Shown: piece after piece, positions 1 through 31,120 of the stretch
Layout of the letters: each line of letters starts with the position of its first letter
Position numbering within the stretch: position 1 is the first letter of the stretch
Assembly (NCBI GenBank): GCA_013151235.1
Contig: JAADIO010000026.1
Location: 1 to 32,306 of the forward strand
Direction of reading: 5' to 3'
DNA: 32,306 nt
Source: Deltaproteobacteria bacterium
GTDB lineage: Bacteria > CG2-30-53-67
Program-made: the position numbers and the translations under genes
The notes under the pieces: generated by a model
The model's input: only the letters and a program-made list of their open reading frames with translations
The model's database searches: none
What the model was told of the DNA's origin: nothing

Positions 1-271
1 CTGCGTGTTCCAGCGCTTCGATCGTCCGGGTATCCGCCCCCTTTGCGGCTTCTGCCCTTTCGTTATGGGAAAACTCCAGGTTGGTCCCGTCTAGGGGGAA
101 TCCGTCGAATTTCCGGGTGAGGTCGAAAAGAGCAGCGTCCCCTTCCCGGCTGACCCGGTCGAGGATCTTCTGTACGGTATCGAGGACCTGCGGCGGAATC
201 TCTCCACCCCGCCGTCGAAAGCGCCGAAGTTCCTCGTCGAATCCGGCGGCGGTTGCATCAAGTTTCTTCAT
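1..271 (-). CDS. hisD: Histidinol dehydrogenase, N-terminal part (cut by window edge)
   Basis: The first 90 codons of a leftward gene begin at the ATG whose first base is 271 and run off the window. HisD oxidises L-histidinol to L-histidine with NAD+, the last steps of histidine synthesis in the cytosol. The call rests on the N-terminal pattern FDEELRRF...REGDAALFDLTRKFDG at residues 11-57, typical of HisD; the catalytic and zinc-binding residues lie outside the window. An AAGGA Shine-Dalgarno-like run lies about 12 nt before the ATG. The gene follows dapA in the same direction, but a 179-bp MITE-like insertion now separates the two. Before that insertion the two genes would have been about 22 nt apart. 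Confidence 0.85.
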   Translation of the reverse strand, partial: MKKLDATAAGFDEELRRFRRRGGEIPPQVLDTVQKILDRVSREGDAALFDLTRKFDGFPLDGTNLEFSHNERAEAAKGADTRTIEALEHA

Positions 272-304
272 CTTGGAATAGGGTCCTTTCGCTTCAGATG
301 AGTT

Positions 305-483
305 GATGGTGTCGTAAAAAGTCACGAAGCCCTTCGACCCTTCGGCCGGCTCAGGACAGGCGTACTCAGGGCGAACGGTGTAAGTTATTGATATTCTGTT
401 CGTGTGGTTCGACCGGCTCACCATGCTCGGTAGCTTGTCGAACCATGAACGGAACCCGGAAAACGACTTTTTACGAGTTCATC
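305..483. mobile_element. MITE-like element copy 1, inserted at the 3' end of dapA
   Basis: The left end reads GATGGTGTCGTAAAAAGTC. The right end, read on the other strand, is GATGAACTCGTAAAAAGTC, so the termini are about 19-bp inverted repeats. A 7-bp direct repeat ATGAGTT flanks it (298-304 and 484-490), as expected of a target-site duplication. The interior carries the common CCGGCTCAGGACAGG / TTCGACCGGCTCACC type of dispersed repeat and no gene. Copies 2 and 3 are at 9105-9221 and 20404-20622. The dapA stop codon (471-473) lies inside the right terminal repeat. No transposase is present, so the element would be moved in trans. Confidence 0.8.
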
Positions 484-1355
484 ATGAGTTGATAACCTTT
501 CAATACATCCGTCAGCTTCTCCCGTGTCCCCTCTCCCATCGGGCAGAGGGGGAGCCGGAAGGTCTCTTCGCATTTCCCCATCAGGTGCAGGGCGGTCTTG
601 ACCGGCAGGGGGTTGGTCTCCAGGAACATGGCCCCCGTGAGATCGAGAAGTTTGTAGTGAAGCTTCCGGGCGGTATTGAGATCCCCCCGGAAGAAGGCGC
701 TCACCATCTCCGACATATCCTTCGGCGCCGTATTGGCGACGACGGAGATGACCCCTCGTCCGCCGATGGCGAGGGTCGGCAGGACGGTGAAGTCGTCCCC
801 CGAGAGGACGAGAAACCCCTCCGGGCTCTGATCGATGATCCGGCTGATCTGGTGCAGATCGGCCGAGGCCTCCTTGATACCGATAATCTCCCCGATCTTT
901 GAAAGACGCGCCACCGTCTCGGGCAGGATGTTCAGTGAGGTTCTCCCCGGCACGTTATAGAGGACGAGGGGGAAGGCGGTCTCTTCAGCGATTTTCCTGT
1001 AGTGCTGATAGATCCCCTCCTGGCTGGGCTTGTTGTAGTAGGGGGAGATGAGCAGCGCCCCGTCGGCGCCGGCCTTCTTCGCCGCCCGGGTCAGGTCGAT
1101 CGTCTCCGCCGTGGAGTTGGAACCGGTTCCCGCCAGGACCGGAACCCGTCCGTTGACCGCTTCCACGGTGATCCGGATCACCTCCTTGTGTTCCTCGTGG
1201 GTCAGGGTGGCCGACTCACCGGTGGTGCCGCAGGGGACGATCCCGTTGACCCCGTTCTCGATGAGAAAGGTGATCAGGCCGCGCAGGGCCTTTTCGTCGA
1301 TTGAACCGTCTTGCCGAAAGGGGGTGATGATTGCAGGGAGTGTGCCGTGAAACAT
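471..1355 (-). CDS. dapA: 4-hydroxy-tetrahydrodipicolinate synthase
   Basis: DapA condenses pyruvate with aspartate semialdehyde, the first committed step of lysine and diaminopimelate synthesis in the cytosol. At 294 aa it has the normal family length, and the TIM-barrel landmarks are intact: CGTTGES with Thr44/Thr45, YNVPGR with Tyr133, and GIKEAS with the Schiff-base Lys161, at the same positions as in E. coli. The ATG start has an AAGGAG site 7 nt upstream. It sits in a leftward run with dapF, which acts later in the same pathway. The last residues (MMNS) and the TAA stop come from the right end of a MITE-like insertion. Removing the element and one target duplication predicts an ending ...GYQLI followed by TGA. 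The change is at the extreme C-terminus and is probably tolerated. Confidence 0.97.
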   Translation of the reverse strand: MFHGTLPAIITPFRQDGSIDEKALRGLITFLIENGVNGIVPCGTTGESATLTHEEHKEVIRITVEAVNGRVPVLAGTGSNSTAETIDLTRAAKKAGADGALLISPYYNKPSQEGIYQHYRKIAEETAFPLVLYNVPGRTSLNILPETVARLSKIGEIIGIKEASADLHQISRIIDQSPEGFLVLSGDDFTVLPTLAIGGRGVISVVANTAPKDMSEMVSAFFRGDLNTARKLHYKLLDLTGAMFLETNPLPVKTALHLMGKCEETFRLPLCPMGEGTREKLTDVLKGYQLMMNS

Positions 1356-9104: not shown

Positions 9105-9221
9105 GATGAAGTCGTAAAAAGTCCACCTGTCCCTTCGATGGCTTCGGCCAGCTCACCATGCTCGGAAGCCTGTCGAACCATAGAATGGAACCCGGGGAAT
9201 GACTCTTTTTACGAGACCATC
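9105..9221. mobile_element. MITE-like element copy 2
   Basis: This shorter copy is bounded by GATGAAGTCGTAAAAAGTC on the left and, read on the other strand, GATGGTCTCGTAAAAAGAG on the right. AATGTAT flanks it on both sides (9098-9104 and 9222-9228). The interior again contains the CGGCCAGCTCACCATGCTCGG type of repeat. It fills most of the gap between the chain-length gene and the glycosylphosphotransferase and lies just before a candidate sigma-54 promoter. Confidence 0.78.
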
Positions 9222-20403: not shown

Positions 20404-20622
20404 GATGGTGTCGTAAAAAGTCACGAAGCCCTTCGGCCGGCTCAGGACAGGCCCTTCGACATACTCAGGAGAGCCTTGTTCAGGGTGAACGGTGTAAGTT
20501 ATTGATATTCCCTTCGCATGGTTCGGCAAGCTTCTGAGCATGGTGAGCTCAGTCGAACCACATGCTCGGAAGCCTGTCGAACCATGAACGGAAGCCGGAA
20601 AACGACTTTTTACGACTTCATC
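20404..20622. mobile_element. MITE-like element copy 3
   Basis: The longest copy starts GATGGTGTCGTAAAAAGTC and ends, on the other strand, GATGAAGTCGTAAAAAGTC. ACACTT flanks it on both sides (20398-20403 and 20623-20628). The first and last 30 bases are nearly identical to copy 1. The interior is longer because the CTCAGG/TTCGAC repeat units are expanded. It occupies most of the second half of the gap before the sulfotransferase. Confidence 0.8.
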
Positions 20623-30786: not shown

Positions 30787-31021
30787 ATGAGGGAATGATA
30801 TTTTGTTCTCCCTCGTCTCTGAAGGTGTTTGTGAAATGGTCCGGGATGGGATTTCGAGACAAGAGGACCACCCCTCACCTCGATCCTCTCCCCTGGTATT
30901 GGCCGTTTGATCGGCTTAAACCGTTCAAGCGGTTGAAACGGTTTGGTCCTCCCCTTTGGGAAGCTTGCCGAACTACATGCCCGGAAGCCGGTTGCGCCAC
31001 GCGAACGGAATGTCAATCACT

Positions 31022-31120
31022 TACACCGTTCGCCCTGAGCCGGTCGAAGGGTGGACGGAGACCGGACGGAATGCCGAAGGAGTGGATGGGGCTTTGAAGT
31101 ATCCGCCCCTCTTCCGGGGT
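31022..31120 (+). repeat. 99-bp direct repeat, copy A (left of fcl)
   Basis: From TACACCGTTCGCCCTGAGCC to CTTCCGGGGT, this segment matches 32208-32306 base for base except for four substitutions, with no gaps. The two copies lie on the same strand on either side of fcl, 1,186 bp apart. It includes the widespread CGTTCGCCCTGAGC...TCGAAGGG unit. Confidence 0.85.

Follow-up and report, generated by a model that had tools for sequence, protein, structure and literature searches.

The dapA-hisD junction

The analysed window, a stretch of 32,306 nucleotides from an uncultured Deltaproteobacteria bacterium, opens with the start of hisD and the lysine gene dapA, both on the minus strand, and a short element lies at their junction. 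The features are as follows.

1..271, minus strand: start of hisD, cut by the window edge, with its ATG at 271-269 (Pfam Histidinol_dh, E=5.2e-9)
294..296, minus strand: putative ancestral dapA stop TGA, stranded behind the element (empty-site ending GYQLI-stop; YGLI-stop in G003 and G005)
298..304, no strand: first ATGAGTT of the target-site duplication (elsewhere, the MITE copies are flanked by 6-7 bp ANNNNT duplications of their own)
305..483, no strand: MITE copy of 179 bp without transposase (terminal inverted repeats, BLAST copies and termini genome-wide)
305..323, plus strand: left terminal inverted repeat GATGGTGTCGTAAAAAGTC
465..483, minus strand: right terminal inverted repeat GATGAACTCGTAAAAAGTC, which holds the dapA stop
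471..473, minus strand: present dapA stop TAA, within the terminal repeat of the element
471..1355, minus strand: dapA (4-hydroxy-tetrahydrodipicolinate synthase), 294 aa, ending in GYQLMMNS (Pfam DHDPS, E=2.9e-103, residues 2-286)
484..490, no strand: target-site duplication ATGAGTT, copy 2
9105..9221, no strand: second MITE copy, 117 bp, with duplication AATGTAT at 9098-9104/9222-9228
20404..20622, no strand: third MITE copy, 219 bp, with duplication ACACTT at 20398-20403/20623-20628

A sequence-only reading of this DNA had placed a MITE-like insertion at 305-483, flanked by ATGAGTT on both sides. Direct reading of 298-490 confirmed both flanks and all coordinates given there. The terminal inverted repeats are 19 bp long and imperfect and follow the pattern GATG-NNN-TCGTAAAAAGTC, with 16 fixed positions. 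Around the element the 10-mer ATGAGTTGAT occurs twice on the plus strand; since other copies fix the ends at GATG...CATC, the duplication comprises 7 bp and the extra GAT belongs to the element end.

On the minus strand, the end of dapA reads GGT TAT CAA CTC AT/G ATG AAC TCG TAA, where the slash marks the element boundary. When the element and one duplicate are removed, dapA ends in GGT TAT CAA CTC ATC TGA (...LTDVLKGYQLI-stop), followed by 22 nt to the ATG of hisD; the predicted empty allele at the junction reads AAAGGTTATCAACTCATCTGAAGCG. This is the ending with a TGA at 296-294 that the same reading had proposed. Its further claim, that the GYQLMMNS ending takes its TAA from the right terminal repeat, agrees with the position of this codon (473-471) inside 465-483. 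As both the element status and the stop position were upheld, a mobile element does supply the stop codon of dapA. The altered end lies outside the DHDPS domain, because this domain spans residues 2-286. In a same-genus genome hisD opens with the identical MKKLDAT. The claim that the element split dapA from hisD stood only in part. The spacer lengthened from 22 nt to 199 nt and is hairpin-forming, but the genes are still adjacent and co-oriented and no recognised terminator lies in the spacer, so that 'split' is too strong a word.

The core of the MITE contains REP-like TTCGACAAGCTCA palindromes. REP and BIME elements, which are moved by RAYT, are short palindromes that lack both terminal repeats and target-site duplication, whereas the element at 305-483 has clear termini and duplications, and its family carries the inverted repeats of the MITE class. 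At 30956-31100 of the window, a REP-like core (translating as TVRPEPVEG) is found without MITE termini, perhaps as a solo core repeat.

Copies of the family and the junction in relatives

The copy census was based on pattern searches, BLAST searches and individually read stretches. About 40 copies were detectable by BLAST in the genome, the closest being 93-95% identical over the full length. A terminus pattern search allowing up to 2 mismatches gave 177 matches across the genome, while the reversed pattern, used as control, gave 3; this suggests approximately 85-90 MITE copies. Six of the termini lie in the window, where 0.31 were expected. The copies are dispersed over many contigs, measure 104-329 bp and contain no transposase gene; the copy at 9105..9221 is situated 16 nt behind a chain-length-determinant-like ORF.

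Exact duplications flanked 49 of 62 copies when copies and flanks from three genomes were read, 43 of them 6 bp and six of them 7 bp long. The duplicated target conforms to ANNNNT, with A as first base in 88/98 and A or T as second base in 90/98 cases (both sides read). Each copy carries its own, different 6-7 bp duplication, and these private duplications rule out that the 7-bp flanks at dapA are part of a conserved longer repeat, a possibility raised by the sequence-only reading itself. Altogether, inverted repeats, private duplications and dispersed copies identify 305-483 as a MITE-like insertion, and thus as a mobile element.

Termini were also counted in other genomes, with 171 in G001, 77 in G002 and 41 in G004, while the pattern search gave essentially none in G003 and G005, which represent a third genus of the family, or in the outgroups. 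In G001 most of them belong to an element of 153 bp whose core is unrelated. The termini are thus common to several MITE subfamilies whose cores differ. In G001, termini of the 153-bp subfamily are located approximately 115-140 bp from the starts of many contigs (e.g. C2, C6, C9, C13, C16), so MITE copies appear to break this assembly.

The dapA-hisD junction was then compared among relatives, as an empty site there had been named as support for the insertion. The dapA product ends in DYQLLR in same-genus G001 and in YGLI in G003 and G005 of the same family, and it has a 12-residue extension in G004. The MMNS ending is absent from all relatives' dapA compared; had all of them carried it without the repeats, this would have spoken against an insertion. 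In G003 and G005 the junction consists of YGLI, TAA, about 25 nt and hisD, a compact order that is nearly the reconstructed empty arrangement. A same-species empty site was not found in a contig scan, which gave distant relatives only and from which the species' own records were perhaps excluded. The G001 junction (L032) lacks the element and contains a different repeat of approximately 210 bp, of which several near-full-length copies with 88-92% identity exist in G000 and G001. The G004 spacer (L033) holds another repeat cluster, rich in GGGTTCAAG, for which about 100 matches were found. The junction thus took different repeats in three lineages and is compact in one.

With the element family, the duplications, the empty architecture of relatives and the altered stop as observations, the origin of the present arrangement is almost certainly the insertion of a non-autonomous MITE at ATGAGTT over the last codons of dapA, with a 7-bp duplication and an altered stop. 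The element would have been moved in trans by a transposase, landing on ATGAGTT at the end of dapA. There, the second entering frame would have turned I-stop into M-M-N-S-stop and left the old TGA stranded.

No autonomous partner was found, as PF01609 and NF033593 matches in four genomes were without convincing paired termini. Two candidates were rejected: an IS1182-family element (L151) is nested in a MITE and has its own inverted repeats (523-555/2293-2325), and one end of a 1.9-kb terminus pair (L189) lies inside a different transposase-like frame, the pair being supported neither by an inverted repeat search nor by a duplication. Viral contigs bearing the terminus showed no pair of transposon length, and there was no plasmid match.

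Stop codons supplied by the element ends

Genes were called around the 49 complete copies in the genome using a home-made codon-frequency score trained on the confident genes of the window. None of these copies interrupts a gene, and 32 of the 45 copies with both neighbours callable lie between co-oriented genes (hand count). The stop of the upstream gene is supplied by the element, in full or in part, in 7/49 complete copies, or in eight when one lacking a clean duplication is included. Besides dapA, the stop of the neighbouring gene sits at offset -2 in seven copies, made of a host T and the GA of the element. One of them (L246) was left aside for want of a clean duplication. At four others (L022, L024, L026, L222) the empty site already reads TGA, so the stop was regenerated; in the relatives read, orthologues of the L026 dehydrogenase have their stop directly behind DSRIx or DNRIx. 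At L249 an empty-site TAA is now TGA. The tetrapyrrole methylase/HemD fusion at L030 lost five residues to the element stop: its orthologue in G001, ending in EAIQEYFGAIRSKPHI-stop, matches the reconstructed EAIRKYFAEKQSNQKI-stop in length. Stop supply is therefore a habit of this MITE family and not an accident.

The MITE at L151 (G004 contig C150, 499-2424) lies directly behind a peptide deformylase-like gene. The stop of this gene is T/GA, the empty site TAA, and the duplication has one mismatch.

The sequence of the ends accounts for these stops. When GATGNNNTCGTAA follows a T, frame one gives TGA, frame two reads xxG-ATG-NNN-TCG-TAA and frame three is open; thus, two of three entering frames stop within 13 nt, at both element ends. 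Additionally, GA stood directly outside the duplicated target at 17/98 junctions, more often than the 8.6% seen at control offsets (post hoc test, p=0.004). Since most such sites are not in-frame stops, this mild target preference is not survivorship alone but acts alongside selection against insertions in genes.

Whether the ends are adapted to stop codons, with GA termini and a T^GA preference that make gene ends safe sites, is an idea that would add to the insertion explanation and not replace it, and we regard it as unlikely. The GA enrichment at host junctions that are mostly not in-frame stops, together with four copies exactly at host TGA stops, is in line with such an adaptation. However, the enrichment, roughly two-fold, was calculated with the data already in view, selection removing intragenic insertions predicts the same pattern, and many transposons have target sites similar to their own ends. 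More tentatively still, the ends could be built-in stop cassettes which, with the T^GA preference, allow self-healing transposition onto TGA. If true, the stop would be regenerated and the element would spread through compact operons at almost no coding cost.

Altered gene ends of this kind are already known from several systems. In Coxiella burnetii, QMITE1 and QMITE2 are located at the 3' ends of functional genes and alter C-termini, QMITE2 contributing the last 33 residues of enhC in one strain (PMC5896051). The present family resembles them in both respects; host and element are unrelated, and the comparison is one of descriptions, not of sequences. The enhC stop is just downstream of QMITE2, whereas here the stop is either part of the terminal repeat or formed at the junction. 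Likewise, the enterobacterial repeats RU-1, RU-2 and RU-3 replace the normal stop of an amidase gene at its 3' end, and an L-threonine 3-dehydrogenase gene is another with RU at its end (PMC2759123). Through the open frame of RU-1, the amidase gains about 35 residues (PMC2759123). The replaced stop at a gene's 3' end is shared, but the present family adds little to proteins, because within 13 nt a stop is reached in two of the three frames. According to the review PMC10969869, Chunjie of Geobacter uraniireducens is a multi-copy MITE whose copies measure 178-235 bp and bear conserved terminal repeats and duplications; one of them lies in an operon, the structure of which was left undisturbed according to the title given for Chen et al. 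2008. By description only, it is like the present family in being multi-copy, in its terminal repeats and duplications and in having a copy in an operon. The same review describes Rickettsia palindromic elements as short repeats tolerated in protein genes, where they form in-frame fusions; unlike these, the present family alters the gene end and interrupts no gene. The phenomenon is thus known from QMITE, RU and Chunjie, and the detail added here is a MITE family with terminus-encoded stops and repeated stop regeneration.

The dapA-hisD junction offers a clean, testable case in which a transposable element makes up part of a biosynthetic gene's coding end while relatives keep the empty architecture. 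With at least six other genes ended by the same family, it shows that such elements can occupy operons almost harmlessly, which bears on how MITEs can become numerous in bacterial genomes that are densely packed with genes.

Expression of dapA and hisD

The dapA gene most likely stays functional, as the change is beyond the conserved domain of the enzyme. The start and ribosome-binding region of hisD lie outside the element, where AAAGGA (reverse of 285-290) is found just upstream of the start codon. From this arrangement, dapA and hisD are probably still co-transcribed.

That the insertion separates the two genes functionally, being polar, or that a frame in the element gives hisD a new start, appears improbable. 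The lengthening of the spacer and an ATG within the element (424-422) that is in frame with hisD would fit such an effect. Against it, a scan of 200-600 detected no terminator- or promoter-like site, hisD has its start and AAAGGA outside the element, and in G001 and G004 the junction accommodates other repeats. An origin of the inverted repeat as a native, immobile dapA-hisD attenuator or terminator is refuted: its position between two genes and an RNA fold better than that of shuffled sequences (-67.3 kcal/mol, z -4.25) might suggest one, but the approximately 40 BLAST copies, 177 termini and private duplications, the compact element-free junction of G003 and G005, the missing terminator-like site and the element's lack of an Rfam family match leave it next to no probability.

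Arrangements such as the inserted MITE at dapA also matter for annotation, since element-derived C-termini get taken as native by automated pipelines. The hisD frame is open upstream into the element (window 2-424, minus strand, with the in-frame ATG at 424-422); therefore, gene callers may wrongly extend hisD.
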